A stretch of DNA of 64,000 nucleotides, taken from assembly GCA_011033025.1 (NCBI GenBank), contig WFMF01000104.1:124001-188000 (forward strand), written 5' to 3'. The notes below the pieces were generated by a model, which saw only the letters and a program-made list of their open reading frames with translations, did no database searches and was not told the origin of the DNA. The position numbers were made by a program, and so were the translations under genes. Every line of letters begins with the position of its first letter. Position 1 is the stretch's first letter. Positions 17,719 through 41,110 of the stretch are shown here, one piece after another. This DNA comes from Beroe forskalii (Eukaryota > Ctenophora > Nuda > Beroida > Beroidae).

Positions 17719-17754
17719 CAAAGACACCCCCCCAAAGGCTCCCTTTGATTCTTC

Positions 17755-18030
17755 ATTTTCGCAGTTCTATCACCGGCTGTGCAAGATTTTCACCGGTCTA
17801 GCCAGCTGCACCCAGAAATCATTATGTCAGGTGGATGTCATGCGACTGAGCTCGCGATTCAATATTTTCGCAGTTCTACCACCGGTTGTGCAAGATTTCC
17901 ACCGGTCTAGCCAGCTGCACCCAGAAATCATAAAGTCAGGTGGATGTCACGTGACTGAGCTGCGATTCAATATTTTTGCACTTCTACCACCGGCTGTGCA
18001 AGATTTTCACCGGTCTAGCCCGATGTATGT
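17755..18030 (+). repeat. 108-bp satellite, left arm, ~2.7 units
   Basis: The unit contains CACCGGTCTAGCCAGCTGCA, then CCCAGAAATCAT, TCAGGTGGATGTCACGTGAC and GATTCAATATTTTCGCAG. The same array appears inverted at 22185-22440 and again at 62860-63210. Two 22-kb units start exactly 108 bases apart. Confidence 0.9.
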
Positions 18031-18260
18031 ATGATATAGTTACACATTAATCTACATAACTGTTTACACAACATACACACACAATGATTGAATTACATTG
18101 GGTAACAGACATTGCGCTACACACAGGCATCAACGTACACCCTTCGGTACACAGTGGCCAGTGTATAGTTGTGTGAGTGTTGGACTTAGCAAGTATGTAA
18201 GACGTAAGTTATGAAGTGAAGTACCTACCTACTACCTAGGTACTCTTGGGACGGAGATTA

Positions 18261-19939
18261 ATAAACACAGAAACTGATTCATGATTTTAGAATAGGTAGG
18301 TAATAACTTAAATTGTATTTGTACTTTTGTACCATTAACAAACAGGCCTGCCGGGCGCATTTCGCCCATTGTTCCGCATGCAGGCGCTTAATTTCCTGTT
18401 CCCCGGGCTGGTATAAAACACGCTGTCATTTGATCGTCGACCATTGTCCGTCTCATTTACTGACATGATGAGTTGACGATAAAACACTACTATCATGTCA
18501 CATCGCAATACCAAAGGGCAAAGTACCAATTCATCATTGAATGAATTTTATAAATATTTCATTCATAAGTATAAACTGAAACAATTAAGTTCGCATGTGA
18601 TCACAACTCGCACGTGCATTTTATTGCGCCAACACCTGTCATGTTCTGTTTGCGCAACACCTGCCATGTTCTGTGTGCTTGTTTGCTGCACAAATTCATT
18701 CTTGGTTGTTTCCTTTTTGAGTTTTGTGCGACATGTCATGCTCACATCGCTGCCAGTACATTATCAACCGTTTCCATTGATGACAATAATTATATCATAC
18801 ATTATTTTCTGTCCTTGCAAGTTTCTGCAGTTTGAGTTTGTGTTGCTCAGCTATCACAGTCAGAGCTCACTTCAAAATAAAAACTTGACTGAGGATTTCA
18901 TGGTGACTATTGATATTCAAACCAAATGCAATGTAATTCCTGGGTGTCGAAATTTGTGATGTTATTGAGATCAACTTGTGCCAACTTGCAGATAAAGAGA
19001 AGGATTTCTAACCAAGATTGAAGATTCAGATATCGTAAATTCATCAAGTATCGGGACAAAATTTCATCTCTTACTTTCCTTAGCACAATTGCTAAGGTCA
19101 ATCATCATTGATTGAACTCAAATTGCTCATTGCCAATTGGCAACTGCTTAAAGAAAAATGTTAATTTGATTGAAACCCAATCAAAATTTGATGGAGATTC
19201 CCAAGAAAATCGATAAACATTCATGCACCTCTTGTCATTGACTTAAGTGTGATGAAATTAAAGAATGATGAAGTTTATGAAAAAGAATCAATTTCAAGTT
19301 TCAACATTAGGATGGGCAGAGCATTGAACCGAATTCCTGTAAGCTAGCGGCTGCAGTGGACACTGAACAGTATGCCACTACACCAAGCTATATTGGCGCT
19401 GAAAGTGATATTATAAAGGAGCAGTTGATCGAAAAGTGACATACGACCAACGACCAAATTCGGTCGCGCTGCAGCACACCACCTATTTCAGATTTAACAG
19501 TACGCATAAAGGTAGTATACACACAACCCCCACAAAACACGATCTCTGCTAACCTTTTCTCAATGCCTTTTTGTAAAACAAAAACGCGATTGGGAACAGG
19601 AAAAAATCATGATGATATAGACGTTCCTTGAATCATTATTATCTATATTGATATTTTGGCGCACCCTGTAAGTAAATAATTTCAAAGTAATCATACATCT
19701 GTGTGTATGTATGTGTCATTGTGTGTAATGAGTTTAGCGAGCCGTGGCCATCACATATTACGTCAGCACTTTTTTGTAATTTTTGACCCCCCTCCCGTCT
19801 GTCAATGGAAATATAAAATCAATCAGGTAGGAGTGGTGCATCTAATCTTCTTAGATTCGTTTGAGATCAACAAAATATCAAATGTCATGTCACGTGCTAA
19901 GTAAATTATCTAACAATTATAGATATCAAATGCAAAATA
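18261..19939. other. Inner spacer of the fold-back element, left
   Basis: Several open frames of 60-150 codons occur on both strands (for example 18495-18959, Cys/Phe-rich and hydrophobic), but none has a recognisable domain or splice context. A GC-rich inverted word (CAGGCCTGCCGGGCGC and GCATGCAGGCGC at 18343-18390) resembles one at 25505-25552. Confidence 0.35.
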
Positions 19940-20690
19940 ACTGGTGTCACACACTCGTAGTGTACTAGTGTCACACACTCCTAGTCTAGTGTACTGGTGT
20001 CACACACTCGTATTCTAGTGTACTGGTGTCACACACTCGTAGTCTAGTGTACTGGTGTCACACACTCGTAGTCTAGTGCACTGGTGTCACACACTCGTAG
20101 TCTAGTGTAGGTACTGGTGTCACACACTCGTAGTGTACTGGTGTCACACTCGTAGTCTATTGTACTGGTGTCACACACTCGTAGTGTACTGGTGTCACAC
20201 TCGTAGTCTAGTGTACTGGTGTCACACACTCGTAGTGTACTGGTGTCACACTCGTAGTCTAGTGTACTGTTGTCACACACTCGTAGTCTAGTGTACTGGT
20301 GTCACACATTCGCAGTTTAGTGTACTGGTGTCACACACTCGTAGTCTAGTATACTGGTGTCACACACTCGTAGTCTAGTGTACTGGTGTCACACACTCGT
20401 AGTCTAGTGTACTGGTGTCACACACTCGTAGTCTAGTGTACTGGTGTCAACCATTCGTAGTCTAGTGTACTGGTGTCACTCACTCGTAGTCTAGAGTACA
20501 GGTGCCACACACTTGTAGTCTAGTTTACTGGTGTCACACACTCGTAGTCTACTGTACTGGTGTCACACACTCGTAGTCAAGTGTACTGGTGTCACACACT
20601 CGTAGTCTAGTGTACTGGTGTCACACACTCGTAGTTTAGTGTACTGGTGTCACACACTCGTAGTCTAGTGTACTGGTGTCACAATAAAGT
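19940..20690 (+). repeat. 29-bp minisatellite, about 26 units
   Basis: The unit is GTGTACTGGTGTCACACACT plus CGTAGTCTA. Shortened units (missing CACA or TCTAGTG) alternate with full ones at 20110-20280. It lies at the centre of the fold-back element. Confidence 0.93.
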
Positions 20691-20813
20691 AATAAAGTAA
20701 TTGATAATAACGAATATATAGGTACATCAGCTATATCATGGTTTGTGGACGTTCAAAAGTACAATTTATACAGTTTAGGTATAAGTCTTTAAAATATCAT
20801 AACGGTGAAATTT

Positions 20814-21722
20814 CCGGGGGGGGGGTTCAGCGGTAAGTGGTATGGACGGCATCACACTTAAGGGCATGGGGGTGGTGGGTACTTCGAACTAGCGACCAGA
20901 TAGCGGCAGACGGTAAATGGTATAAATTTTAGGTAAAATGCAGTAAATCCACTAAATTTGTTACGAAATTTGTGAAAAATTTGTCAAAAAATGCCCATTT
21001 TCAGAAATTTTGGATATTGAAACTGGATTTCTCGGCTGCTCCTAGCGCTCTTAAGTAAATTTAATTATGAATCAGGAATCTTAACCTTAAATTGGTGTGA
21101 CGTCATCATGGACTATTACATGCTACAAAAGACGACGTAACGAGCTGATTTCTAATATCGATGATATATGCCAATGATTTGGCACAATTGTTTGAAGAAT
21201 TCACGTGACATAAATGTTACTATGTAGATAAGACTTCAAAGTTTCAAGTTGATTAGTACCTAAGAGTAGTTAGTAAAAAAGTTTTGAGTTCGTAAAATGT
21301 TGCGGGTCACATCAATACCTACCCATTGCACCCAGTGCAGTCTAGATAGTTCTAGGTATCTAGATATCTAGGCAGTTGTATGGTAAAATTCTCTTGTGTT
21401 TTTAAAATCTGTAGCAATTTTGGGTATTAAATTGATTGTGTCCCTAGAAAGGAATCACTTCATTAAGAGTAAGTGACTTCATATATTTGATAAGAGTGAG
21501 AAACTAAAATTATATTAAACAAAGGGTCGTTATTTGCAACGAATTTGTGGTCCCTGAAACAATTTCTGTAGCTTGTAGGGGTGGGTCTAATTCTTAGTTC
21601 AGCTTGACCAGTTACAGGCATGCCGCTATCTGGTGGGTGGGTGGGTGGTTGGGATTCTTGACCAGATAGGGTGATGCCGTCCTCCCACTTACTGCTGAAC
21701 CCCCCCCCGAAATTTCACATAT
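20814..21722. mobile_element. Nested ~0.9-kb element with GTGAAATTTC-G9 inverted ends
   Basis: The left end GTGAAATTTCCGGGGGGGGG, then TTCAGC and GTAAGTGG, then GACGGCATCAC, is matched inversely at 21672-21722 (GATGCCGTC, then CCACTTACTGCTGAAC, CCCCCCCC, GAAATTTCAC). A second inner pair (CTAGCGACCAGATAGCGGC at 20889 against GCCGCTATCTGG at 21623) extends the arms. There is no open frame of note and no target duplication could be resolved. Confidence 0.75.
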
Positions 21723-22184
21723 TTAATGTTATGCTCTTTGAGTATGACCAACATTTGTCCCTATGTTTGTTTGGATATGGCCTAGCCTGGCGAGCTCAGT
21801 GGATGTCCTTGCTGAACGGCATGTTAAACAAGGAACTGAAGCTGTGAGGTTCCGTTCAGTCCAAACAACTATCTAACTATTGTGTCAAATGTTGGTACAT
21901 ACAAAATGTGTTTCTCAACACAACCCAAGAGTAAGCATTTTCTGTGTTTACTCTCCGTCCCAGGAGTACCTAGGTACTTCACTTCATAACTTACGTCTTA
22001 CATACTTGCTAAGTCCAACACTCACACAACTATACACTGACCTCTGTGTACCAAAGGGTGTACGTTGATGCCTGTGTGCAGCGCAATGTCTATTACCCAA
22101 TGTAATTCAATCATTGTATGTGTATGTTGTGTAAACAGTTATGTAGATTAATGTGTAACTATATCATACATACATCGGGCTAGA

Positions 22185-22440
22185 CCGGTGAAAATCTTGC
22201 ACAGCCGGTGGTAGAACTGCGAAAATATTGAATCGAAGCTCAGTCACGTGACATCCACCTGACATAATGATTTCTGGGTGCAGCTGGCTAGACCGGTGAA
22301 AATCTTGCACAACCGGCGGTAGAACTGCGAAAATATTGAATCGCAGCTCAGTCACGTGACATCCACCTGACATAATGATTTCTGGGTGCAGCTGGCTAGA
22401 CCGGTGAAAATCTTGCACAACCGGTGGCAGAACTGTGCAA
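22185..22440 (-). repeat. 108-bp satellite, right arm (inverted)
   Basis: Reverse complement of the array at 17755-18030, with about 2.4 units. The word ATCCACCT recurs exactly 108 bases apart (22253 and 22361). Confidence 0.9.
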
Positions 22441-22539
22441 CTGTGGCAATTTGAAATCAAAGGGAGCCTCTGGGGGGGTGTCTTCGCAACTTCGATTTTA
22501 AAAAAACACAGTATAACACAGTATAACTTGTCTGAACAA

Positions 22540-24460
22540 AATAATGCACTTTAACACATCAAATAAGAGAACATCATCGCTTACTATGTAATCCTATGTA
22601 ATGTAATCCTATAGTATCAACAAGGGAATTAACTTTATCCACCCAATAATTTGCAACACTGAAACATTATATTAACTCACCAAATAATGGATTTTATGCT
22701 GTTCACCCAATTCAACACTACATGCAAAATTATTGTATCACAGGAATTATATGCTTATATGGGATTTTAGTCTTTTCACCCAACTCTAAACAGTTAATTA
22801 TCAACACACTAGATAAAGAAATTTCGCTGTACTACAGTACCTACATTACGTTACATTACTATATAAACATGGAATAAGAGAATTACGTCTATTCACCCAA
22901 TAATCCACTACATTGCGTTACTAAAACACCAATTATCAAATAAACTGATCATCCACTACTTGGCAAATACACCAAATAAGGGAATCGCGCTGTATACCCA
23001 ATGCTAGATAACATACCAATATAATACATACAAAAAATTAGGAAAGGAACTTAGCTTACTCACCCTGTACTATCAATGCTATAATTCTGTAATGATGCCT
23101 ATCACAAGGAATGCTTTGAGTTGTAGCATATTAAAGTTTAGTAACACACCAAATAAGGGATCTTTCACTGTCTAGGTTCATCCAATACTTCATAGAAGTG
23201 TAGTACTAACTATCACAGCATCACAGGAAAAAAAAATATTTTAACCTTATAATACATCTAACATCAAATCAACGCACCAAGGGAATTTCATAATATGTTC
23301 ACCCAATACTAAATATAAATATTATATGAAGACATACTATTGAGGAAACTTATTAGTTCACCCAATAATTCATAACACAATACTATAATCATATTAACCC
23401 ATCAAATAATGCAATTTGCCCTGTTAACCCAATAACATAATCAACAAGTTGTTACATCAAATTAGAGAATCAAATCTGCCCATCCATCACCATTCACCAT
23501 GCTACATTATTATTATTATTATTAACATAACAAATAAGCTAATAACCTGAATATAATCCGCTCAGTACTCACTCATTAATTTGTAATATTACATAAACAA
23601 CTTAATAAGAGAATTTAGTCTGTTACCCAATAATACATAAAATTATGTCAATATCACAAATAAGTAAAGTTAGTAGAAACAAAGTAAAATATGATATAAA
23701 CAAACTAAAAATAGGAATTTAATCTAGTCACCTAATATTATATAACATAATACTTAATAGGTATCTTTATCAATTAATAGAATGATAAATAATAATAAAT
23801 TAGAACTAAATCTGTATAAATGTACCTAACACGACATAATAACCTTTTACTTGTTATAACATGTAGGATAGTAGGATGTTAGAATATCAAAAAAGGGAAA
23901 TTACTCGGTTATCCAATACTACGTAACTTTGTTTTAACCATCAAATAAGGATATCCAATATTCATCATGTTCAACCAATACTTTATAACATTCCATTAAG
24001 TACATCAACTTACCATAAAAGGGAACTCACTCTTTTACCAAATACCATTTAGCATCGTAGGAACTTAAACCGTTAATTTAGGGATTCTGCCCAATCAAAA
24101 ATTCGTTTTTATGTATACAAATATGGTAGTTTATATCTCTGCACCTAACAAATTTTTACAACAAATTATAGAATGATAGGTTCTCTTACTAATAGTAATA
24201 ATTAAATTTACTTGGTCCATCCAATCATATTAATAACATCAAATAATTAAAGACGACTGTTTAAACTGCAGTGTGCACGGCTTGAGTTTGTATGGCGTAT
24301 GCCGTACATACATGTTATTTATTTTGGTCTGCGTGCCGCACGGACCTGGGCATTGTGCACCAGGGGCACATGGGGTGCATTTCGAACTGCCTGCATAACA
24401 CACCAAATAAGGGAATTTAGTATGTTTACCCAAAATGCGAAACAACAGTACAGAAGTGTT
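22540..24460 (+). repeat. Ancient, strongly degenerate ~60-70-bp satellite
   Basis: Across nearly 2 kb the words CAAATAAGGGAAT, then GTTCACCCAATA and then ATAACA recur in that order with heavy decay (for example near 22545, 22975, 23150, 23400, 23580, 24395). A related fragment lies at 17385-17520, on the other side of the fold-back element, which probably inserted into this array. Confidence 0.65.
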
Positions 24461-25187
24461 TGATTCTGGTCCCCCATACAAGAGCATCAGATACAGGACA
24501 TTCTAGTCCATTTCTTGTCCTGGATACTAGTAGTAAAATAAGAAAATGGAGGAGAAGCCTTTGCCTTTTTCATCGCCTTAAAAAGAAATTGAGCGTATGT
24601 TTTCGGCTCAAGCCAGTTAGGCAGATAACTTCTTGAGTTGAGGCCATTGGGGTTTATTACCCAACTGGCACTTATAGTTAAGCGTTCAATAGTTTGCATA
24701 GTCACCTGCCCTCTGCTATTTAGACTATTCGGCACGCCAACATGTCAGCCTCGCCGCGTCACCCGGCACAACCGTTACTCCTCAGAATTAATTGTTAAAT
24801 GTAAGGGGTCTTGTCGTTCGGCACAGCGCATCTTCGGAAGCGCATCTACATACATACTATGGATGGTTGCCCATCCAGATTCCAGAATCGTTTTTGGTGT
24901 TGACAGGGGGTTAAATTTTTTTTGGAGGGAGGCGGGTTAATTTAACCCCCAAGTGGATATAAGAATTGCCAATTGGGGGTTTAATTCTAGGAGTTGGGGG
25001 GTTTGAGGGAGCCCCCCCCCCTAAATAAATAAATATCAAAATTTTCTAGAGTGATGTTAAGTAGATTCTTACTTCTTTACTTAAGTATTCTACGAAAAAT
25101 TTAAAAAGATGAATCATCCCTCCAGGTTATTGCAGAATCTTCCTTCTGGCATTCATATCGCTTACCAGTGACTACATCTTCCAAAAC
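24461..25187. other. Spacer with oligo-G/C tracts
   Basis: 24905-25025 has alternating GGGGGTTAAATT, TTAATTTAACCCCC, GGGGGTTTAATT and a long C tract, imperfect inverted repeats that may be remains of another G-tract element. No supported gene. Confidence 0.4.
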
Positions 25188-25484
25188 ATGGAGGTGATCA
25201 AGGCAACATTTGGAACTATAGCAAGTGTTTGTCACGCAGAAAACAGGGTGGTGTTTCACAGTGAGATGTGCGAGAAACAGAAGGAGTTCATCAACGATGT
25301 TATAGAGGTTGCTTCCCTGAACAACACTACACACTTGATATGCATATCTATTGTTGAGTTATTGGTACATCTAGAAAACTGTATCAATAATCACAATCTT
25401 AAAGATTCTGTTAAACCTTTTAACGCATTAGCCAGAGCGGTAACCCCCTGCATTATGTACTTATGTAAGAAAAAGAGACTGTAA
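25188..25484 (+). CDS. Possible short protein or exon, 98 aa, unrecognised
   Basis: The frame reads MEVIKATFGTIASVCHAENR, then a helical stretch with EKQKEFINDVIEVASLNN and ICISIVELLVHLENCINN, ending KKKRL. Composition is protein-like and the ATG context ACATGG is fair, but there is no known domain and no splice evidence. The opposite strand also has a Cys/His-containing frame (25101-25334), so chance cannot be excluded. Confidence 0.2.
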   Translation: MEVIKATFGTIASVCHAENRVVFHSEMCEKQKEFINDVIEVASLNNTTHLICISIVELLVHLENCINNHNLKDSVKPFNALARAVTPCIMYLCKKKRL

Positions 25485-26198: not shown

Positions 26199-26360
26199 GA
26201 TATCACCACCAAAACCGTTGGACGGTTGGTCTAGTAACCCCCCGCTGGTTTGGATGTGATCAGCCCATTTTGTCTCTTTTCAGGTTCCGTTGTCACATCC
26301 AAACCCGCGGGGGGTTACTAGACCAACCGTCCAACGGTTTTGGTGGTGATATCTTGACAG
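26199..26360. repeat. Long hairpin, ~65-bp arms, ~30-bp loop
   Basis: The left arm GATATCACCACCAAAACCGT, then TGGACGGTTGGTCTAGTAAC, then CCCCCGC and GGTTTGGATGTGA, pairs with the right arm that ends ACGGTTTTGGTGGTGATATC. The arms are almost perfect. The AT-rich loop contains a pyrimidine-rich CTCTTTTCAG. Confidence 0.9.
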
Positions 26361-26394
26361 ATGTATGTAGTTTAAACCATGTTACTCGTACCCC

Positions 26395-26650
26395 GTTATT
26401 CAGACCCCGTTATTCGGACCCCCCTTTTTTCGGACCCCCGTTATTCGGATCCCCGTTATTCGGACCCCGTTATTCGGACCCCCCACATTCGGACCCCGTT
26501 ATTCGGACCCCTGTTATTCGGACCCCCGTCATTCGGCCCCCCGTTATGCGGACCCCTGTTATTCGGACCCCCGTTATTCGGACCCCCGTCATTCGACCCC
26601 CGTCATTCGGACCCCGTTATTCAGACCCCGTTATTCAGACCCCGTTAGTC
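26395..26650 (+). repeat. ~15-bp minisatellite (ATTCGGACCCCCGTT)n
   Basis: About 17 units with small variations. A decayed counterpart at 30211-30440 marks the start of the tandem duplication. Two overlapping open frames of 89 and 134 codons run through it because of the unit size and are not genes. Confidence 0.9.
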
Positions 26651-29600
26651 GTATTTAAACTCATTTCAACATAATCAAGTCGAAAATCCCGTGTAAACAT
26701 AAATTTCTTCAAATCCCCTAATTTCTACAAAACGTCCGTGTGTACCACGTGCTGAAATATGGCAACTAGATCTAATTTCACGTGCATTAGTCGTATTTAA
26801 ACTCATTTCAACGTAATCAAGTCGAAAATCCCGTGTAAATATCAATTTCTTTAAATCCCCTAATTTCTACAAAACGTCCGTCAACTCACGTGCTCCACTA
26901 GTTCATCGTATATTTCCCATCCCTATTCACTGCAAGACATGGAGAAACCATTATCAGTAGACCATCGTATCAATAGAATAGGATTACAGTACAATTTTTC
27001 GTCATAAACCTAATTTCAATCAATTGCAGTTCAATTTTTTAGAAGCCTCCCACGACAACAATCTTCGACCGATCGCCCTGAAACTCGCTCTTTATAGCTA
27101 AATCTTAAGGTCTTAAAAGCAGCATATCAAAGTAAAACATAATCCGATGAAAACTATTTGAGTTAGAGATGTCCAAAGTAGCGCAAAATAGCGATTTTGA
27201 TGACGTCATCACAGCACCCAAATAGACTCAAACCAACTTCCCATATAGCCTATAAGACAATTCCACCTTTAGTACAACATATACTTTGACCGGTCTCATC
27301 TCAAGATAAGTTGCAGTTCTTGACACCTCACTCATTTAAATTTTGTCCTATAATTTGGAAATCGATTTTCACCGTACCTTAGAAAATCGCGCATATCTCG
27401 ATGAAAATCGAGATAGCCCAATAATCCGTATGTTTTCTGAAAGCTCTTTAAATTTGCTAAAAAATTGTTCTTGAAAAATCAGACCGCTATCTCCTTTCCT
27501 TCTTGGTGAAAAATGCGCTCGAAATTAGCCTATTTTCGCTAAAAAAGAAACAAAATTTCGCTAAGTTGATGACGTCATAGTGACGGAAAAATGACGTCAC
27601 CAGAACTTCTCTTATAGCCTATAACATTTTCCCATCTTAGATCAACAAAACCTGACCTCGATTATGGCTCTACCATTTCCGTTCTTGACATCTCATCGTT
27701 TTAAATTTGCTCCCCAACTATCATGTATATTATTATATCTTATTATGCTATCACCCTGTGACACTCAAATCTCTAACTTATACCCCTGGCCAGTTTTTTT
27801 TTATTACCGCGGGGGGGTTACCGCCCTGGCCAGGGCGGGAATCTGTAGCTTCGATAGTTTGCTGCGAGGATTCGACTGAAGGAATTCATATTAGCTCAAG
27901 TTAGATGTGTGTTCTAAACAGATGGAAATGCGGACAATTTTGATTTCAGTGAGATTGGATTCAAATTTGTTGCCCATCTTTTCTCCGGATCTTAACTTTG
28001 GATTAGAAAACCATTGTTCCTGTGTTCTTCTTATTTACTGTCCTCGACATTAATTTATTATCGCAAAATCTGCAATATTTTTTATTCATATTCAAATCCT
28101 ATGTAAATATTTCGTAATTTCGTTATATTGCACCCCTACCCCCAGTAACAAAAAATTGCATCAATGACTTCGTTCAATTTATATTGTACGTCCAACTGAC
28201 TATACGTCAAATTTAACATAAAAACCCAACGGGTTTTCGTGAGCTTATAAGTAGGTACTGCATATTGAGTTGGTATAATTATAATGGAATTGTAGGTACT
28301 GCATATGGAGTTGGTATAATTATAATGGAATTGTCTCTCAGAGCGACCAAATAGCGTGGTGGCTGGAAGGAAATGGAAAAGTCCACTCTTTACCCTCCTG
28401 ATTCAGCCTTCTCTAAGGGGAGTTCCATGACGATCTCCACGTTCACAGTTCAAAGTTTCCTAAATCATGTCTAACTCCTCCGCTAGCAAGATTGAGCCAC
28501 GTAGCTTGCCTATCAGTTTAAAAAAAAATAGTAAGTCCATTATTAAACATAATATTATTATATTAAAATATGCTCAAATTGGATGTAATTCTCATTTACT
28601 GCTGGAGCAACTGAACATAATATTAACTCTGCATGAACAATTTGATTCAAAGTTTAAAATTGAATTTAAATTCAAGTTTAAATTGAACCTTTAGAGTAAA
28701 CTCTAAACATATATATGTATGTATTCCTGTCAGGGTTCATTAGACACAGAGGGACCATTAAACCTGGAGCTGAGTTGTTGCGGTCTATGAGGAAGCCTCG
28801 TTCCTGCTGCCTACAGATTCCTAAGAAGGTTATATTAAAATATGTTTATGCAAAAAACTGCTTATTTTCACTGGTGAGAGTAGTAGCATGTTAGCATGCA
28901 CCTGGGTATCTTATCGCAGCATTTTGTTGGCAGCTAACTCTCGGCTGTAGTGTATGTGAGTGCAGCTAACAATTTGAACAGGTCGTTGTGTCTTGCTCTA
29001 TAGAAGTGGGAGGAAGGAGGGGACCATTGAAAGAGGAGAAAGCCAAGCAATCTCACCCCCACCCAGCCCTAACTCGGGAGGTACCTCTTGCAAGTGAGTC
29101 GAAATACTTGTAGCTTTTTTCTAGAGTGTATTATTTCAAAATATTATCTTTATAATGATCTGATACTTTGTAAATAATAAATAATCATTTTATATCCTTT
29201 CAGTGTCCGACTCCTTTCCTTCTACTTAGAGAATGATGATCGCCTTTACCTCTGGTGGGTGATAGCTTTGATAAGTAGAATTCTAATTCCTCTTTAATGT
29301 GGTGCTTCACACCTCTTAGGGAATTTAAGAAACCTCAGTGCTTCAGTGCACCTCATTTTGTGTAGCCCCTTGCTGTTTCATTGCCTAATGGGATGCTTCT
29401 CAGGACCCCTGACGTGTCACCTCGTACTCAAGTCAGCCTCTGCCTCCTCCCAGGATGAGGACAATATGTCCACTTTCCGAGGGACACAGAAGACCCGCCC
29501 CGCCACCTTGGCCAGGGACTTCTAGTTTCTATGGACAGCATACATGTTACAGACAGTCCACGGCAGAAGTGATCTCTGTGGGGGGACTCACCTTTCTTCC

Positions 29601-30139
29601 TGGCCAGAGCACAAGCCCCGTGGTGGGCATTGTCTTAGGAACCTCCTGGAACCTGAGAGAGGGAGATATCCTCATCCGACTCCTTTGAGGTTTGAATCTT
29701 GAATTTGGAAAGCCTTCAAATACGGTAATATTTGCCAAAACAAGGATTTTTCTAATAACTAAAAACTTTAAAAGAAGACTAAGACCGTATTCTGCTATCT
29801 AAGTTCGTTATTTACCTGTTTGTATGGGATATACTTGGTATGGATATTCATTAATGACTTGATTAATATCTTGAGGTAAGGCTGGATCTCAATAGGCGGA
29901 GTCGATGATATCCTGATCAACCCTCGCTGAAGTGCAAGCTAAACCCCGGACCCCTTCATCTCGGCCTATCACCCCACGTTAGCACTACTTCAATAACTTG
30001 TGAGTACTGAGAAAATTCAACTACAGTTGTGAGTGGTGATGTTCTAAAGTTTGAATTTTTCTATAACAACATAACATGATGATTGATAACAATATATTGG
30101 TTATTATTATTATGGAATATAAATTAACCCACTTGCCCC
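26400..30139 (+). pseudogene. Tandem duplicate copy A, exons frameshifted
   Basis: Homologous along its full length to 30211-33849. The exon equivalents of the gene in copy B are recognisable at about 28350-28533, 28737-28830, 28981-29093, 29205-29255 and 29400-29688. Each of the five carries small insertions or deletions; for example TGGCTGGAAGGAAATGG replaces TGGCTGAAGGAAATGG and shifts the frame. The 5' non-coding half looks better preserved here than in copy B. It is either a decayed duplicate or an assembly artefact of two alleles placed side by side. Confidence 0.6.
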
Positions 30140-30210
30140 TTTTACCCCGTTTGTATTTAAAGCCAAAACCTAACTTTTTAAACTTTTTTTTCCCTTTTAC
30201 CCCCCTTTTT

Positions 30211-33200
30211 CAGACCCCGTTATTGGGCCCCCCTTTTTTGGGGACCCCGTTTTTCGACCCCCGTTATTGGGACCCCGTTATTCGACCCCGTTATTGGGAA
30301 CCGTTTCGACCCCGTTATTCGGACTGTCACGGGCCCCCCCGTTAGGGGCCCCCTGTTATTCGACCCCGTTATTCGCCCCCCGTCATTCGCCCCCCGTCAT
30401 TGGACCCGTTTTTCAGCCCCCCCTTATTCAGACCCCGTTAGTCGTATTTAAACCATTTAAAATAATCAAGTCAAAACCCTTTAAACATAAATTTTCAAAT
30501 CCCCTTTTTTAAAAAACGTCCGTGTGTCCCACGTTGAAATATGGCAATAGATCTAATTTCATGCATTAGTCGTTTTTAAAAATCATTTCAACGTAATCAA
30601 GTCGAAAATTTAAATATTTTCTTTTAAACCCCCAAATTTTTTACAAACGTCCGTCAACTAGTGCCACAGTTCATCGTATATTTATCCCTATTCACTGCAA
30701 GACATGGAAAACCTTTTCAGTAGACCATCGTATCAAAGAATAGATTAAGTACAATTTTTCGTCATAAACCAATTTAACAATTTAGTTCAATTTTTAGAAG
30801 CCCCCCGAAAAAAATTTTAGACCCCCCCTGAAACTTTTTTATAGCAAAATTTTTCGTTTTAAAAAAGCAGCATATCAAAGTAAAAAAACCGATGAAAACT
30901 TTTTGAGTTAGAGATGCCCAAAGAGCGCAAATAGCGTTCTACCAAAATAATTTTAGTTTTTGGTTTTTGATGAGTCATCACAGCACCCAAATAACCAAAC
31001 CAATTTCCCCATAAAAGTATAAGAAAATTCCCATTTAGTAAAATACTTTTGAGGTTCATCTCGATAAGTTATTTTACACCACCTTTTAAAATTTTTGTCC
31101 TATAATTTGGAAATCATTTTCACTACCTAAAAAATCGCGCATATCTCGATGAAAACAGATCCCCCAATAATCCGTAGGATTTTCTGAAAGCTCTTAAATT
31201 TGCTAAAAATTGCCAAAAAATCAGACCCCTTCCCTTTCCTTCTGGAAAAAGGGCCCGAAATTAGCCTTTTTTCCCAAAAAAGAAACAAAATTTCGCTGTT
31301 GATGACGTCATATGACGGAAAATGGTCACCAGAACCCCTTTTTAGCCTATAACATTTTCCCATCTTAGATCAACAAAACTCCGAATTCGATTATGGCTCT
31401 ACCATTTCCTGCCCCTGACATCTCATCATGTTTTAAATTTGCTCCCAACTATCATGATATTATTATTATATCTTATTATGCTATCACCCTGTGACACTCA
31501 AATTCTAACTTATACCCTGGCCAGTTTTTTTTATTACCGGGGGTCGCCCTGGCCAGGGCGGAATCTGTAGCTTCGATAGTTTGCTGCGAGGACTGGACTG
31601 AAGGAATCTATATTAGCCAAGTTAGATGTGTGTTCTAAACAGATGGAAATGCGGACAATTTTGATTTCAGTGAGATTGGATTCAAATTTGTTGCCCATCT
31701 TTTCTCCGGATCTTAAACTTTGGATTAGAAACCATTGTTCCTGTGTTCTTCTTATTTACTGTCCTCGACATTAATTTATCGCAAAATCTGCAATATTTTT
31801 TATTCATATTCAAATCCTATGTAAATATTTCGTAATTTCGTTATATTGCACCCCTACCCCCAGTAACAAAAAATTGCATCAATGACTTCGTTCAATTTAT
31901 TGTACGTCCAACTGACTATACGTCAAATTTAACATAAAACCCAACGGGTTTTCTCGTGAGCTTATAAGTAGGTACTGCATATTGAGTTGGTATAATTATA
32001 ATGGAATTGTAGGTACTGCATATGGAGTTGGTATAATTATAATGGAATTGTCTCTCAGAGCGACCAAATAGCGTGGTGGCTGAAGGAAATGGAAAAAGTC
32101 CACTCTTTACCCCTCCCGATTAAGCCTTCCTCTAAGGGGGATTTCCACGACGATCTCCACGTTCACAGTTCAAAGTTTCCTAAATCATGTCTAGCTTCTC
32201 CTCGCAAGATTGAGCGCTCACGTAGCTTGCCTATCAGTTTGAAAAATAGTAAGTCCACATTAAACATAATATTATTATATTAAAATATGCTCAAATTGAT
32301 GTAATTCTCATTTTACTGCTGAGCAACTGAACATAATATTAACTCTGCATGAACAATTTGATTCAAAGTTTAAATTGAATTTAAATTCAAGTTTAAATTG
32401 AACCTTTAGAGTAAACTCTAAACATATATATGTATGTATTCCCGTCAGGGTTCATTAGACACAGAGGGACCATTAAACCTGGAGCTGAGTTGCTGCGGTC
32501 TATGAGGAAGCTCGTTCCTGTTGCCTACAGATTCCTAAGAAGGTTATACAAAATATGTTTATGCAAAAAACTGCTTATTTTCACTGGTGAGATAGTAGCA
32601 TGTTAGCATGCACCTGGTATCTTATCGCAGCATTTTGTTGGCAGCTAACTCTCGGCTGTAGTGTATGTGAGTGCAGCTAACAATTTGAACAGGTCGTTGT
32701 GTCTGCTCTACAGAAGTGGAGGAAGGAGGGGGACCATTAAAAGGGGAGAAAGCCAAGCAACTTCACCCCACCCAGCCCTAACTCTCGGGAGGTACCTCTT
32801 GCAAGTGAGTCGAAATACTTGTAGCTTTTTTCTAGAGTGTATTATTTCAAAATATTATCTTATAATGATCTGATACTTTGTAAATAATAATAACAATCAT
32901 TTTATATCCTTTTCAGTGTCCGACTCCTTCCTTCTACTTAGAGAATGATGATCGCTCTTTACTCCTGGTGGGTGATAGCTTTGATAAGTAGAATTCTAAT
33001 TCCCCTTAATGTGGTGCTTCACACCTCTTAGGGAATTTAAGAAACCTCAGTGCTTCAGTGCACTCTCATTTTGTAGCCCCCTGTTTCATTGCCTCCATGA
33101 TGCTTCTCAGGACCTCTCTGACGTCACCTCGTACTCAAGTCGTACTGCCTCCTCCCAGGATGAGGACAATATGTCCACTTTCTCCGAGGACACAGAAGAC

Positions 33201-33849
33201 TCGCCCGCCACCCACACAGGGACTTCTAGTTTCTACAGGACAGCATACAGCAGACAGTCCACAGCAGAAGTGATCTCTGTGGGGGACTCCACCTTCTTCC
33301 CCACAGAGCATTGCCCCGTGGTGGGCATTGTCTTAGAACCTCCTGAACCTGAGAGGGAGATATCCTCATCCGACTCTTTCGAGGTTTGAATCTTGAATTT
33401 GGAAAGCCTTCGCCGTCGGTACATTGCCAAGTATCAAAATTAGGATTTTTCAATAACTAAAACTTTAAAAGAAGATTCAAGACCGTATTCAAGTATCTAA
33501 GTTCATATTTACCTGTTTGTATGGAGATATACTTGGTATGGATATCTATTAATGACTTGATTAATATCTTGATAAGGCTGATCTCATCAGGCGGAGTCGT
33601 ATGATATCCTGATCAACCCTCGCTTGAAGTGCAAGCTAAACCCCTCGGACCCGCCCTTCATCTCGGCCTATCACCCCACTAGCACTACTTCACAATCTTG
33701 TGAGTACTGAGAAATTCAACCACAGTTGTGGAGTGGTGATGTTCTAAAGTTTGGAATTCTTTTCTATAACAACATAACATGATGATTGATAACAATATAT
33801 TGGTTATTATTATTATGGAATATAAATTAACCCACTTGCCCTTTACCCC
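30211..33849 (+). repeat. Tandem duplicate copy B
   Basis: Second copy of the 3.7-kb unit. The shared end TGATAACAATATATTGGTTA lies at about 30080 and 33784. Its 5' half (30211-31450) has lost many single bases compared with copy A, whereas its exon-bearing half (32050-33400) is intact. The divergence is dominated by indels rather than substitutions. Confidence 0.75.
32059..33389 (+). CDS. Unrecognised multi-exon protein, Ser/acidic-rich C-terminus
   Basis: Five exons join in phase: 32059-32248, 32449-32542, 32693-32804, 32917-32967 and 33111-33389 (stop). All have AG acceptors and GT donors (GTAAGT, GTTATA, GTGAGT, GTGGGT). The reading begins SDQIAWWLKEMEKVHSLP, passes SRSLPISLKN, LRSMRKLVPVAYRFLRR and SFYLENDDRSLLL. 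It ends with a low-complexity acidic and Ser tail, SYSSRTASSQDEDNMSTF to EPPEPEREISSSDSF. I do not recognise the family. Start codon and upstream exons are not identified. The last exon could instead splice at GAG/GTTTGA (33381/33382) into the exons at 42926 onward, making one gene. The phase-preserving joins across four introns are the main argument for reality. Confidence 0.55.
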
Positions 33850-33934
33850 TGGCACCTGTATGGTTCCCCGTAACACCCCTAGGTGAAATGGACTTACAAC
33901 TTTAGAAGTTTAGAATAACGAATAGGTGAATAAA
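33850..33934. other. Entry into the 69-bp array
   Basis: Partial, scrambled units (AAATGGACTTACAACTTTAG, TTTAGAATAACGAATAGG) precede the first full 69-bp repeat. Confidence 0.5.
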
Positions 33935-34220
33935 ATTTAGAATAACATTTCCACTTGAATCAGGCAGGGAGAGAAGGGACACCCTCAAGAAATGGACTTA
34001 GAACTTTAGAATAACATTTCCACTTGAATCAGGCAGGGAGAGAAGGGACACCCTCAAGAAATGGACTTAGAACTTTAGAATAACATTTCCACTTGAATCA
34101 GGCAGGGAGAGAAGGACACCCTCAAGAAATGGACTTAGAACTTTAGAATAACGTTTCCACTTGAATCAGGCAGGGAGAGAAGGGACACCCTCAAGTAATG
34201 GACCTAGAACTTTAGAATAA
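33935..34220 (+). repeat. 69-bp minisatellite, left part (about 4 units)
   Basis: The unit runs TTCCACTTGAATCAGGCAGG, GAGAGAAGGGACACCCTCAA, GAAATGGACTTAGAACTTTA, GAATAACAT. It is split from the right part (41111-42925) by insertion of the 6.9-kb fold-back element. Confidence 0.95.
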
Positions 34221-34329
34221 AGGCTCCCCCCCCGATGGTATAATGCATCTCTAGCTTGGCAGTATTTTAGATAGTGGATGCAAGACTGCAATCAAAATGC
34301 CTGTTACTGTCACAAGGATACATTTAGAC

Positions 34330-35310
34330 TAATGCAAGCCTTCATAGGAAAGGCAAGATTTTCATTGCAATATTTGCAAGATTCGAATGATCTTATGCAA
34401 GCTTTTAGTGGTCTCTGATATCCCAATGCAAGAATTCATAGGAAAGGCAAGATTTTCATTGCAATATTTGCAAGATTCGAATGATCTTATGCAAGCTTTT
34501 AGTGGTCTCTGATATTCCACTGCAAGAATTCATAGGAAAGGCAAGATTTTCATTGCAATATTTGCAAGATTCAGTTGGTCCCATGCAAGCTTTGAGTGGT
34601 CTCCGATATTCCACTGCAAGCCTTCATAGGAAAGGCAAGATTTTCATTGCAATATTTGCAAGATTCGTATGATCTTATGCAAGCTTTTAGTGTCTCTGAT
34701 ATTTCACTGCAAGCTTTCATTGGAAAGGCAAGATTTTCATTGCAATATTTGCAAGATTCGAATGATCTTATGCAAGCTTTTAGTGGTCTCTGATATTCCA
34801 CTGCAAGAATTCATAGGAAAGGCAAGATTTTCATTGCAATATTTGCAAGATTCAGTTGGTCCCATGCAAGCTTTGAGTGGTCTCCGATATTCCACTGCAA
34901 GCCTTCATAGGAAAGGCAAGATTTTCATTGCAATATTTGCAAGATTCGAATGATCTTATGCAAGCTTTTAGTGGTCTCTGATATCCCAATGCAAGAATTC
35001 ATAGGAAAACAGATTTTCATTGCAATATTTGCAAGATTCGAATGATCTTATGCAAGCTTTTAGTGGTCTCTGATATTCCACTGCAAATTCAATTCATAGG
35101 GAAAGGCAAGATTTTCATTGCAATATTTGTGCAAGATTCAGTTGGTCCCATGCAAGCTTTGAGTGGTCTCCGATATTCCACTGCAAGCCTTCATAGGAAA
35201 GGCAAGATTTTCATTGCAATATTTGCAAGATTCGTATGATCTTATGCAAGCTTTTAGTGTCTCTGATATTTCACTGCAAGCCTTCATAGGAAAGGCAAGA
35301 TTTTCATTGT
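34330..35310 (+). repeat. 94-bp satellite, left arm, about 10 units
   Basis: The unit contains TGCAAGCTTTTAGTGGTCTC, TGATATTCCACTGCAAGAAT, TCATAGGAAAGGCAAGATTT and TCATTGCAATATTTGCAAGA. Two variant classes alternate (GATTCGAATGATCTTATGCA and GATTCAGTTGGTCCCATGCA), a higher-order pattern. Frames through it are repeat by-products. Confidence 0.93.
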
Positions 35311-35312
35311 AT

Positions 35313-35998
35313 GATACACCTAGCAGCTAGGCAGGTACATAGAAAATGATACGGCCCACACGTTAATCTATGATACATTATATAGTGACTTTGATACGGT
35401 TTATATAGGACTGTGTGTGCAATGTTATTCTATGTAAATGATACACTGTACACCCAGCCTTTACCGCAGCGCTAAATATCTCGATGAAGAGTTTCTCAGC
35501 AGGGTTCACGAATCACGGAAACAGTTTACAAGCAACGTGTAAATTCAACAATACGGTGTATAGTGTACTTGTACATGAAAATAAAATTCCAAATAATGTT
35601 TACTGTGTGTTTATCGAATAATGGAATTACTTCATTAAACCTCTGAAAATTCGATGTGTGTCAATTATAGTCGTTAACAACCCCACCAACGGTGTCAGAC
35701 TTTTGATGTGTGATTTAAAAATCTTACGGCACGAAGTTTATCCATAGGAACCTATCCAGGAAAAAAAATCTTGTTCAGGTACCTAATATGATTTTTGTTC
35801 ATAAAGGTAGGTCGCTTTTTGGAAGGATGATAAAAGATTGAAACCTAAGCTTTGGATTATGAGTTGTTTGAAGCAATCTCTTCGAATGTGCTATTCATCT
35901 TGATGGCAGTGCATCTTTTTAAATTGAACAGGGGTATTTTTCAACGATGTGCATCACTAGGTGCAGATGCACTGAAGGGATGCGCAGAAAATGATAAG
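35313..35998 (+). repeat. Unique part of the left inverted arm
   Basis: TACACCTAGCAGCTAGG, GATACGGCCCACACG and CAGCGCTAAATATCTCG recur inverted at 38097-38562. A segment around 37775-37915 repeats it in direct orientation, so the core has several nested inversions. No gene. Confidence 0.8.
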
Positions 35999-35999
35999 T

Positions 36000-37360
36000 G
36001 AGAGGGTCGTTCAGGAGTGTGAGAGAGTCGTTCAGGACTGTGAGAGGGTCTTTCAGGACTGTGAGATTGTCGATTAGGACTGTGAAAGTGTCGTTCAGGA
36101 CTGTACGAGAGGGTCGTTCAGGACTGTGAGAGGGTCGTTCAGGACTGCTAGATGGTCGATTAGGACTGTGAGAGGGTCGTTCAGGACTGTACAACTACAA
36201 GAGGGTCGTTCAGGACTGCTAGAGAGTCGTTCAGGAGTGTGAAAGTGTCGTTCAGGACTGTACGAGAGGGTCGTTCAGGAGTGTGAAAGTGTCGTTCAGG
36301 AGTGTGAGAGGGTCTTTCAGGACTGTGAGATTGTCGATTAGGACTGTGAAAGGGTTGTTCAGGACTGTGAAAGTGTCGTTCAGGACTGTGAGAGGGGTTC
36401 AGGACTGGTAGATTGTCGATTAGGACTGTGAAAGTGTCGTTCAGGACTGTACGAGAGGGTCGTTCAGGACTGTGAGAGGGGTTCAGGACTGCTAGATGGT
36501 CGATTAGGACTGTGAGAGGGTCGTTCAGGACTGTACAACTACAAGAGGGTCGTTCAGGACTGCTAGAGGGTCGTTCAGGAGTGTGAAAGTGTCGTTCAGG
36601 ACTGTACGAGAGGGTCGTTCAGGAGTGTGAAAGGGTTGTTCAGGACTGCACAAGAGAGTCGATCACGAGTGTGAGAGGGTCGTTCAGGACTGTCCAAGAG
36701 GGTCGATCAGGAGTGTGAGCGGGTCGATCAGGACTGTACAGGAGGGTCGTCAGGACTGTGAGAGGGTCGTTCAGGACTGTACAGGAGGGTCGTCAGGACT
36801 GTGAGAGGGTCTTTCAGGACTGTGAGATTGTCGATAAGGACTGTGAAAGTGTCGTTCAGGACTGTACAGGGTCGGTCGTCAGGACTGTGAGAGGGGTCTT
36901 TCAGGACTGTGAGATTGTCGATAAGGACTGTGAAAGTGTCGTTCAGGACTGTACAGGAGGGTCGTCAGGACTGTGAGAGGGTCTTTCAGGACTGTGAGAT
37001 TGTCGATTAGGACTGTGAAAGTGTCGTTCAGGACTGTACAGGAGGGTCGTCAGGACTGTGAGAGGGTCTTTCAGGACTGTGAGATTGTCGATTAGGACTG
37101 TGAAAGTGTCGTTCAGGACTGTACAGGAGGGTCGTCAGGACTGTGAGAGGGTCTTTCAGGACTGTGAGATTGTCGATTAGGACTGTGAAAGTGTCGTTCA
37201 GGACTGTACAGGAGGGTCGTCAGGACTGTGAGAGGGTCTTTCAGGACTGTGAGAGGGTCGTTCAGGACTGCGAGAGGGTCGATCAGGACTGTACAGGAGG
37301 GGGGTCAGGACTGTGAGAGGGTCGATCAGGACTGTGAGCGGGTCGATCAGGACTGTGCAT
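36000..37360 (+). repeat. 21-bp minisatellite with 85-bp higher-order unit
   Basis: The basic unit is GGGTCGTTCAGGACTGTGAG plus A, with variants GTCGATTAGGACTGTGAAAGT and GTACAGGAGGGTCGTCAGGA. Between 36785 and 37230 a block of four variants repeats at spacing 85 (for example 36952, 37037, 37122, 37207), showing recent higher-order amplification. Confidence 0.93.
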
Positions 37361-39119
37361 GGTACTTTTAACATAAATTGCCCTAAATTATTCTGCGATA
37401 TGAAGATTGAAGATCGATGATATAGAATCATCCAAGAATGCAAAGGAACCTTCCATTAAATTTCGGTGCATCCTTTATTATATAAGGTACACTTCAACTT
37501 CTAGTGACAAATCGGTACGAGGATTACAAACTGGTGATTGAGTTTTGAAATCCGTACCGATAAGTCACCGAAGTAGAGTCTGTGGTTGATCAAATTAGTC
37601 GTCTTCCGGATTCATGAAGTAAGAAGACGTGACATATCAATCACAGTTCGATAGACGAATCGGTACGGGTGACATATCGGGGTCTAGCAATATTTTCGAC
37701 ACAGTTTATTGTTTAAATCCTCAATTTAAACTATCAATTAACGTCGTGTTCTTGATACAATTGAAGATGAAACATTATATAGTGACTTTGATACGGTTTA
37801 TATAGGACAGTGTGTGTTATGTTATTTTAATATATAAATGATACACTGTACACCCAGCCTTTATTACCGCAGCGCTAAATATCTCGAGAAGAGTTTCTGA
37901 GCAGGGTTCACTCGTCCTACTCTGATTCACGTCCTATTGACGAAGAAATCCTTGTTCTACACACCACGTCTTTACATCAGTGTCGAAATTTTATTTCCAT
38001 CTACAAGTAAACTATACATTGTAGGTACACTGTACATTGTATGTTGATTTTACGTTGCTAGCAAACTGTTTCCGTGAACCCTGCTCAGAAACTCTTCATC
38101 GAGATCATATTAGGTACCTACCAAAGATTTTTTTTCCTGGAAAGGTTCCTATGGATAAACTTCGTGCCGTAAGATTTTAAATCACACATCAAAACACCGT
38201 TGGTGGGGTTGTTAACGACTATAATTGACACATCGAATTTTCAGAGGTTTAATGAAGTAATTCCATTATTCGATAAACACACAGTAAACATTATTTGGAA
38301 TTTTATTTTCATGTACAAGTACACTATACACCGTATTGTTGAATTTACGTTGCTTGTAAACTGTTTCCGTGATTCGTGAACCCTGCTGAGAAACTCTTCA
38401 TCGAGATATTTAGCGCTGCGGTAAAGGCTGGGTGTACAGTGTATCATTTACATAGAATAACATTGCACACACAGTCCTATATAAACCGTATCAAAGTCAC
38501 TATATAATGTATCATAGATTAACGTGTGGGCCGTATCACTATGTACCTAGCTGCTAGGTGTATCTTACAATAACATTGCGCCCCAGTGTGCGGTCGGTGC
38601 TCCGAGGCGTATCGAATATCAAAGTCGGTCACGTGACATGCATTCTGTATGTTTTACCTGATATGCGCGGTGTGACGTAGAAGTCACGTGAACGGGTTGA
38701 GGTGGGTGCGTGATAATCGTGGTCACGTGACAGTCACGTGATGCCACTCGAAAGCTCGTGTTGCCAAATGAAAACACGTTTTAGTTTCTTCTTGTATCAG
38801 CAATTATAATGCCCCTGTGCTCTGTGTGTGAATGTGATGTGAATAGGATTACATATATACCAATACACAGAGAAGCTTTCCAATTAAAATGGTCTGAGAA
38901 ATAGCGAAGCAATGTCAACATTCCATCATTGATGTGGATGGTTATTAAGCTTTATGCTATAGCTGGTGTGCGTAATCATATTATTGATATTCCATTTCCC
39001 GCTGATCATTAGTCAAGATGACAAGAAGTACCTACCGTGTTTCGAACTGAAACCGGAAACTCTCCCTACGCTATCACTGACAGGCTTATTACTTTATTAC
39101 CTTATTACTTTATTACATA
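37361..39119. other. Core and right unique arm of the 6.9-kb element
   Basis: 37490-37700 is unassigned sequence, 37775-38100 contains rearranged direct and inverted copies of the arm, 38097-38562 is the inverted arm, and 38590-39119 is single-copy here. No supported gene. Confidence 0.5.
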
Positions 39120-39905
39120 CCTTAGTGGTAGAAATTAAGAAGTGTACTATTTAAGGCAGTAAGCAATTTTACTGCCTTAAATAGTACACTCCTTAAATTC
39201 TACAAGTCTTAATTTCTCCCTACCGTAATTTGTACAATACCCAAATTTTAGAAAATTTTGTTTAAGTAAAGATTTGTACATCTATGCCTAGCTTTTCTTT
39301 CACTACAATATCAAGGCATTCTATTTTCTCTCGATACAGGTTCAGAATTTTTCAGCGATAGCATCACTGCAAACAAAATTGAACTTGAAGTTGATATGAT
39401 AAACAATTATCACTCGATTAAAATTATAGGCATTTCTTCAGCTTCTTCGTCTTCCTGCACATCTTCCATAATCCATATCTTCCATCTCAAGCCCAATAGA
39501 ACCATCTTCGATGTCTTCTTTGATGTTTTTCATCAGGAAACAAGGCCTTCAAAATTTCAGCGGAATCATCGGCCAATCTTTTGATCAAACGGAGGCAGTG
39601 AAACGTTGCAAAGAACATGGTGTTGACTCTAGGATGTTCATTGACCCATTTGCTAATCTGTTTCGCAAGAACGCCTAGTTTTACTGTTGTCTATATTCTA
39701 TAGATCCCAAATAAATTGAATTCAATGGAAAAATCTGCCCCTCTTCTTGTTTTCATATCGGTATTTTTGGCTGAAAATTGGTGAAACGACGTGAAATTTA
39801 GTCCTAGATTTGCCTGATTTTTGTAGAAATGTTACTGCCTTAATTAGTACACTTCTTAATAAGTACGTCCTTAATAAATACACATCTTAATTTCTACCAC
39901 TAAGG
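39120..39905. mobile_element. 786-bp MITE with TA duplication (CCTTAGTGGTAGAAATTAAG)
   Basis: The left end CCTTAGTGGTAGAAATTAAG and the right end CTTAATTTCTACCACTAAGG are exact inverse partners, each flanked by TA (39118-39119 and 39906-39907), as in Tc1/mariner-type insertions. Near the left end a 50-bp hairpin (39141-39190) has perfect 22-base arms starting AGTGTACTATTTAAGGCAG. A further copy starts at 63358. No transposase. Confidence 0.85.
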
Positions 39906-40261
39906 TAATCAGAGTGGGAGAGTCCTCCTCCGGTACAGCCCTTGCGCTGCCTATAAAGTTAAGAAGTTAAAAGAGAAGATACCATATAGGAATGAACTAA
40001 GAGCCAAATTTTCCAGGGCTAAATAACGGGCGATTCCAGAAAGCTTGGTATCACATAACCACAGAAGCACATAATATCAAAAACCTATGAAGATCTGAGT
40101 TTTGGCCCCAAAACGACACCACCTTAGCCTAGTGAAAGGCATTCATGATAAAATGATATCATTTCTGTGGGCCGAAAGAAAATTTTTAAATCATAATTTG
40201 ATCCGATAGCCCTACCCCTGGCGTGGACCCCTGTTGATGGGGGGAGTAAGTAACTTTTCAA
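39906..40261. other. Right spacer of the 6.9-kb element
   Basis: Single-copy in this window and without a supported gene. Confidence 0.3.
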
Positions 40262-40850
40262 CCTATGAAGGCTTTCATTGGTATATCAGAGACCACTAAA
40301 AGCTTGCATCAGATCATTCGAATCTTGCAAATATCGCAATGAAAATCTTGCCTTTCCTATGAAGGCTTTCATTGGTATATCAGAGACCACTAAAAGCTTG
40401 CATCAGATCATTCGAATCTTGCAAATATTGCAATGAAAATCTTGCCTTTCCTATGAAGGCTTGCAGTGGAATATCAGAGACCACTAAAAGCTTGCATTAG
40501 ATCATTGGAATCTTGCAAATATTGCAATGAAAATCTTGCCTTTCCTATGAAGGCTTGCAGTGGAATATCAGAGACCACTCAAAGTTTGCATAGGACCAAC
40601 TGAATCTTGCAAATATTGCAATGAAAATCTTGCCTTTCCTATGAAAACTTGCAGTGAAATATCAGAGACCACTAAAAGCTTGCATTAGATCATTTGAATC
40701 TTGCAAATATTGCAATGAAAATCTTGCCTTTCCTATGAAAGCTTGCAGTGAAATATCAGAGACCACTAAAAGCTTGCATAAGATCATACGAATCTTGCAA
40801 ATATTTGAATTAAAATCTTGCCTTTCCTATGAAGGCTTGCATGGGAGTCT
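40262..40850 (-). repeat. 94-bp satellite, right arm (inverted), about 6 units
   Basis: Reverse complement of the array at 34330-35310, with the same AAAGCTTGCAT and AAATCTTGCCTTTCC words. The arm is shorter than the left one. Confidence 0.92.
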
Positions 40851-41110
40851 ACATTATGACAGGCATTTTCCTACTGTTGGGTCAGCCAAAGACTGCTCAA
40901 CGTGTGAAATATTGCAAACTTCTTTGCAAGCTTTTTGTTGCCAAATGCTAGATTTGTCTTCTGTCTCATACGGCAAATCTTGCAAAACCACCAAATAAAC
41001 TTGCTGGTCCCTAATTGATTTAAATTCCGCTGGCTATGATGAGCAGTCTTTTGGTAATCTCATGCAAGTTTTTTGGTGACTAGTGCATTATACCATCGGG
41101 GGGGGAGCCT

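Follow-up and report, generated by a model that had tools for sequence, protein, structure and literature searches.

The window analyzed here, a 64,000-nucleotide stretch of the genome of the ctenophore Beroe forskalii (contig WFMF01000104.1, below C44; C44:124001-188000), contains two large structures in which inverted arms with satellite repeats enclose a minisatellite core. The question raised by this locus is whether such structures are mobile elements and, if so, what moves them. Both are non-autonomous fold-back transposons. The set to which they belong is real, represents a variant of a known layout, and is well supported by its ends, the length of its target duplications, empty sites, arm anatomy, and dispersed copies. 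Our leading, though tentative, reading is that two real families of such DNA transposons are mobilized in trans, plausibly by an integrase of the Polinton type.

Fixed ends, target duplications, and empty sites

Element 1 (17722-22483, 4762 bp) starts with AGACACCCCCCCAAAGGCTCCC, ends with the inverse of AGACACCCCCCCAGAGGCTCCC, and is flanked by two copies of TCGCAA. Element 2 (34221-41110, 6890 bp) is hosted by a 69-bp satellite; its tips form a 27-bp perfect terminal inverted repeat (TIR), AGGCTCCCCCCCCGATGGTATAATGCA, with GAATAA on both flanks. The window tips, AGACACCCCCCC and AGGCTCCCCCCCC, stand between exact 6-bp duplications. The original prediction, made from the window alone, had pointed to these fixed ends and duplications, to arrays in both arms and core, and to a third tip at 62794, and all of these are present. 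It was also right about the ends of the full-length elements, but both contain later nested DNA (18343-19601 and 20815-21708 in element 1; 39120-39905 in element 2) that is absent from other copies.

A genome-wide query with the termini, proposed by the same prediction, recovered dispersed copies that agree with the window elements. In the 216-Mb assembly (1134 contigs), the 22-base tip pattern AGRCNCCCCCCCNNAGGCTCCC has 39 exact matches (18 + 21), compared with 0 for the reversed control. The pattern AGRCNCCCCCCCC alone was rejected as a marker, being close to background (at least 184 + 203 vs. 143 + 174 among the matches listed), and a search of IMG/VR contigs with a tip pattern gave no match. 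The copies read are a subset of all genome copies, and the genome lists of family ends are lower bounds.

Target duplications were counted only for fetched pairs with both tips intact (n = 26), and 25 of these have a perfect 6-bp duplication. Such duplications flank all ten pairs of family 1 (the window, two on C457, C1091, C477, C239, C358:402-407 kb, C181, C392, and C1013:501 kb), all nine of subfamilies 1B and 1C (C625, C421, C1013:179 kb, C1013:105 kb, C244, C601, and three on C814), and six of the seven of family 2, scored by eye (the window, two on C592, C458, C159, and C333). Excluded from the count are five fetched pairs in which one tip is missing (C1013:156 kb, C358:1496 kb, C25, C456, and C44:337 kb), C381 with its degenerate left tip, and the loci with no exact tip or only a single one (L010, L015, L020-L023, L025, L026, and L028). 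Measured as the longest direct repeat shared by the two edges, the duplication has a length of exactly 6 bases in all 14 elements of one set and all 6 of a second. All 26 counted pairs have AG..CT ends, with the tips AGACAC, AGGCAC, AGGCTC, or variants. The targets are AT-rich: in 19 duplications read on both strands, T comes first in 26/38, and A or T occupies position 2 in 35/38 and position 5 in the same number.

For 6 of 14 insertions, an empty counterpart was found by comparing the rejoined flanks, minus one duplication, with 55 sequences; more such sites may exist beyond this search space. The copy on C477 lies in a repeat whose uninterrupted relative, nested repeat X, is found within element 1, so that its empty site (TATATT) is visible in the window. 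Empty sites of window element 2 are provided by 69-bp monomers, those of the C457, C239, and C625 copies by tandem arrays, and that of C421 by a stretch of C422 (96% identity). In the best matches for all six there is no gap at the junction. Therefore, insertion with a 6-bp duplication is demonstrated. A preference for satellites was considered and rejected, as 4 of 13 insertions lie inside arrays, to be compared with array cover elsewhere of 7-30% in three other window stretches and 0.4-29% in eight stretches around Polinton loci.

Two families and the anatomy of their arms

The features of element 1 and of a third, truncated copy are as follows.

17716..17721, + strand: left target duplication TCGCAA of element 1
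17722..18279, + strand: left TIR arm of element 1, 558 bp, tip AGACACCCCCCCAAAGGCTCCC
17755..18020, + strand: 108-bp arm repeat, 2.5 copies
18343..19601, no strand: nested repeat X, missing from copies C1091 and C457a
19940..20683, + strand: 29-bp core minisatellite, 26 copies
20815..21708, no strand: nested 894-bp insert with G-run/C-run ends, missing from copies C1091 and C457a
21933..22483, - strand: right TIR arm, 551 bp, tip AGACACCCCCCCAGAGGCTCCC read inward
22178..22435, - strand: 108-bp arm repeat, 2.4 copies
22484..22489, + strand: right target duplication TCGCAA
62794..64000, + strand: left part of the third family-1 copy, right-truncated, continuing to about L028:8131

The G/C runs at the ends of the 894-bp insert are long, and it has an apparent palindromic 8-bp duplication, GAAATTTC. 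The third copy sits in a 20-bp array (62518-62794). Its right tip is lost, because in L028 the inner right arm gives way to the array at about 8131.

Element 2 has a similar design with different units.

33936..34220, + strand: 69-bp satellite left of element 2, its final 6 bases GAATAA being the duplication
34221..34247, + strand: left tip, 27-bp perfect TIR AGGCTCCCCCCCCGATGGTATAATGCA
34333..35309, + strand: 94-bp arm repeat, 10.4 copies
35306..35792, + strand: inner inverted repeat, partner at 38104-38571 (95%)
35998..37357, + strand: 21/42/85-bp core minisatellite
39120..39905, no strand: nested small element with CCTTAGTGGTAGAAATTA ends and an apparent TA duplication, missing from copy C458
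40262..40841, - strand: 94-bp arm repeat, 6.2 copies
41084..41110, - strand: right tip, 27-bp perfect TIR
41111..42950, + strand: 69-bp satellite right of element 2, its initial 6 bases GAATAA being the duplication

The two window elements had been assigned to a single family. Their arms are not significantly alike, and, judged by sequence similarity, the elements fall into two families with unrelated arms. Homology of the 108-bp and 94-bp units was rejected, the candidate being one 12-base match that was reached in 1 of 500 shuffles (4 of 500 for 1B). The families agree in the style of their tips and in the length of the duplication; at its tip, the C333 copy (AGGCACCCTCCCC) appears intermediate between them.

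The family-1 copies measured are 1250-4762 bp long, and three 1B copies 4055-8905 bp. The TIR match spans 550-1143 bp in 11 of 13 family-1/1B elements and is shorter in C477 (136 bp) and C1013b (268 bp). The copy number of the 108-bp unit is nearly constant, 2.4-2.6 in 22 of 26 arms; the exceptions are both arms of C358 (3.4-3.5 copies) and one arm each of C477 and C1013b, for which no array was called. Although the 1B arms are only 74-79% identical to those of family 1, about 2.5 copies of the unit are kept in both, and in array-bearing left arms, 1B included, the array starts 26-51 bases from the tip. The two ends of family-1 elements are mostly distinguishable (AAAGG vs. AGAGG), C358 having two ends of the AA type. 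The orientation of the 29-bp array relative to these ends is constant in six of nine array-bearing copies, and two copies have both orientations. In family 2, five copies read have 4.4-10.4 copies of the 94-bp unit per arm. Thirteen of its 14 right-end matches show 96-100% identity, one showing 89%; hence family 2 moved recently.

The mobilizing enzyme

Pfam scans of 27 longer frames (10 + 10 + 7) from the loci read revealed no transposase and no Polinton gene, the matches being below the cut-off or to retroelement-type proteins. Three sets of frames were rejected as transposase candidates: the large frames of C458 match RVT_1 (E 1.6e-6, slightly short of the curated cut-off) and belong to a nested retroelement, those of C580 match an endonuclease of the long interspersed nuclear element type, and those of C381 a zinc knuckle. 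The C458 retroelement (L058 2528-5582, within a family-2 copy) has an RVT_1 frame preceded, by eye, by a GIY-YIG-like stretch, and is possibly Penelope-like with an N-terminal endonuclease.

Foldback (FB/NOF) of Drosophila and TU of the sea urchin are fold-back elements with short tandem repeats in their arms, longer target duplications, and other ends, and the inverted repeats of Tlr from Tetrahymena reportedly contain tandem 19-mers. Tlr is described as Polinton-like and encodes integrase, ATPase, and capsid proteins, unlike the elements analyzed here, which are gene-less as far as read. The arm-satellite layout has precedents in Tetris and Galileo. Tetris, a fold-back element of Drosophila virilis, has tandem repeats within long TIRs, the same arm arrangement as here, but its unit lengths differ and its target duplications are of 8-10 bp (PMC4079207) rather than exactly 6 bp. 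Galileo, a fold-back-like element of the P superfamily, has long, internally repetitive TIRs, but a P-element transposase and 7-bp duplications; the tandem units of its TIRs were proposed to be secondary transposase binding sites (PMC3573991). Thus, the layout itself is not new, contrary to what the original prediction had supposed; its combination with AG..CT ends and 6-bp duplications did not turn up in a partial literature search outside Repbase, which may hold described families. This search likewise yielded no fold-back group with 6-bp duplications, and, judged by titles and abstract beginnings, no paper on non-autonomous or derived Polintons or Mavericks. The elements extend the tandem-arm fold-back layout to 6-bp duplications, supporting the notion of an independent evolution of repeated subterminal binding sites in different superfamilies, and represent a further route for the spread of long inverted satellite repeats in a genome.

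AG..CT ends with 6-bp duplications form a signature of Mavericks/Polintons, a candidate outside the original considerations. Kapitonov and Jurka reportedly formulated in 2006 a 5'-AG rule for Polintons generally. Vertebrate Mavericks have 6-bp duplications, TIRs of 46-1447 bp, and ends of the form (AGT)2 or (AG)3, with (AC)3A in one group (PMC8097293). The AG..CT ends, the 6-bp duplications, and, in family 1/1B, the long TIRs are all shared with the elements, and Polintons are resident in this genome.

A natural explanation is that each copy, as far as read, supplies DNA signals only: a tip AGRC(N)CCC..C, inverted arms in which subterminal repeats stand in tandem, and, in most cases, a core minisatellite. 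Both ends would be brought together by a DDE enzyme provided in trans and joined to the target with a 6-bp stagger, whose repair would leave a duplication of that length. Tandem units near the ends would most likely offer a series of binding sites, and slippage may have produced the arrays of the core. An integrase of the Polinton/Maverick type is favored, because AG..CT ends, 6-bp duplications, and long TIRs are the Polinton combination and open integrase frames are resident. If a Polinton integrase does move the elements, they offer many small, defined substrates (tips, arms, and targets) for studies of Polinton integration.

Polinton polymerase matches were found at 7 places, 6 of them without a stop, and integrase matches at 33, ten of which cover at least 310 residues with at most one stop. 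The locus on C913 combines an integrase frame with a chromodomain, a frame for an ATPase resembling Adeno_IVa2, and a weak match, below the cut-off, to the adenovirus protease; this Polinton has 220-bp TIRs beginning with AGTAGATATATA and is 16.6 kb long from end to end. Besides it, there are nine long integrase matches (57-71% identity), eight without a stop. Integrase loci occur on C997, C619, C254, C346, C669, C178, C1000, C64, and C818, among others. A C913-type element on C257 has AGTAGA..TCTACT ends and the flanks CAGGGT/CAGGTT, equal in five of six bases. From the ends and flanks of C913 and C257 it follows that AG..CT occurs in this Polinton group and that a 6-bp duplication, with one base changed, is present in one of two cases. 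Within the stretches fetched around C346 and C669, no TIR was found. The sequence AGACACCCC at C669:589214 was rejected as a Polinton tip, since it appears to lie inside an open frame that runs into the polymerase. At another locus (L054, C364:126700-135000), a 2.5-kb inverted duplication of about 91.5% identity lies between two head-to-head Polinton polymerase matches.

One feature near the ends may be common to both types of elements. The sequence TCACGTGA occurs near both ends of C913, about 151 and 199 bp inward, and is absent from the 9.9-kb stretch L052; its core, CACGTG, recurs in many family-1 arms some 118-126 and 226-236 bp inward. This weak resemblance is suggestive of a shared feature. 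As proof of a Polinton link, TCACGTGA was rejected, the palindrome GTCACGTGAC being commoner genome-wide than its reversed control.

A number of observations weigh against the proposed reading, most of them against the role of Polintons. GTCACGTGAC is 13-fold over-represented in the genome (4773 vs. 354 for the reversed control); one or both CACGTG sites are lost in several family-1/1B arms (C392, C181, C421, and C625), and in the family-2 copies checked the motif is internal or absent. The TIR of C913, with AGTAGATA ends, has no similarity to the family copies compared and recurs in the genome only at C170 and C257; the flanks of C913 itself are unlike (TCTATA/CGGCTG). Its proteins gave no match to the family copies compared, a set outside which L058-L061 stand. 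No element with AGRC tips was found around Polinton genes, and by-eye comparison with the listed family ends, which are lower bounds, placed 0 of 33 integrase and 0 of 7 polymerase matches within 20 kb. The tips contain neither (AGT)2 nor (AG)3, the short terminal repeats of vertebrate Mavericks, and the copies read are of 1.25-8.9 kb compared with 12.7-24.6 kb in Polintons/Mavericks. In family 2, the perfect tip TIR is only 27 bp, with inverted 94-bp arrays in addition. Finally, flanks differ in the seventh family-2 pair, C592:397 kb (AAAATA/TATATA), and in the uncounted C381 (ACCATA/TAACAT). Chimeric copies of Galileo have unmatched target flanks (PMC3573991), and by analogy the C592:397-kb copy may be chimeric.

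A stronger version of the Polinton reading, in which the elements are satellite-armed passengers, gene-less but replicated, integrated, and perhaps packaged by Polinton machinery through their tandem subterminal signals, seems to us rather unlikely. If true, they would be Polinton counterparts of miniature inverted-repeat transposable elements, or 'satellites' of a polintovirus.

The non-homologous TIR of C913, the patchy CACGTG, and the abundance of GTCACGTGAC leave a Polinton integrase ranked only slightly above another DDE enzyme. The same fold-back elements might well have been moved by a different cut-and-paste DDE transposase, new or uncatalogued, whose source copies are lost or unfound. 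Any DDE enzyme would suffice for the 6-bp duplications and empty sites, the arms and tips lack homology to the resident Polinton with known ends, and fold-back families can lack a visible source, as does Tetris, for which no element encoding the transposase was found either (PMC4079207). However, no such enzyme was detected in the 27 scanned frames, which come from only part of the copies, and AG..CT ends with 6 bp already belong to Polintons.

Membership in IS3EU/GingerRoot or Dada, at which the original prediction had hinted on account of their 6-bp duplications, is highly improbable. The ends of IS3EU are TA..TA and those of GingerRoot TA..TA or sometimes TG..CA (PMC10045372), in contrast to AG..CT in 26 of 26 pairs; Dada elements have no TIRs and insert into small-RNA genes (PMC3706591), whereas the elements described here have TIRs and diverse target sequences, in which no search for RNA families was made. 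Least credible of all is a mimicry of TIRs by satellite arrays rearranged through inversion and duplication: tandem and inverted arrays do abound in the region, and 4 of 13 insertions lie within arrays, but the constancy of the tips, the empty sites, and the exact 6-bp duplications found at sites unrelated to one another contradict it.

Other repeats and genes in the window

Both elements are enclosed by two large inverted arrays of a 39-bp satellite (9806-14207 and 57157-60496), about 43 kb apart; the arrays have flanking sequence in common (GAAAAAACCGTCGCAGGGCAAG), and neither has an outer end of the AGRC type. Between the elements lies a direct duplication of about 3.7 kb (26391-30148 and 30201-33849; 89% identity) with arrays of the 15-bp unit GTTATTCGGACCCC, parts of which duplication recur in the 1B copy on C625 (L027). 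At 44094-47853, a 10-bp unit (CCGAAACAAG) forms inverted arrays with outer arms that are 91.5% identical, resembling another fold-back structure. Two 11/22/44-bp satellite arrays of CCCTTGGTGTA are located at 53124-53525 and 54085-54656. Apparent pieces of host genes, encoding Arb2-domain and Rrn7/TAF1B-like proteins according to Pfam, are found at 4461-5321 and 55452-56687, respectively.

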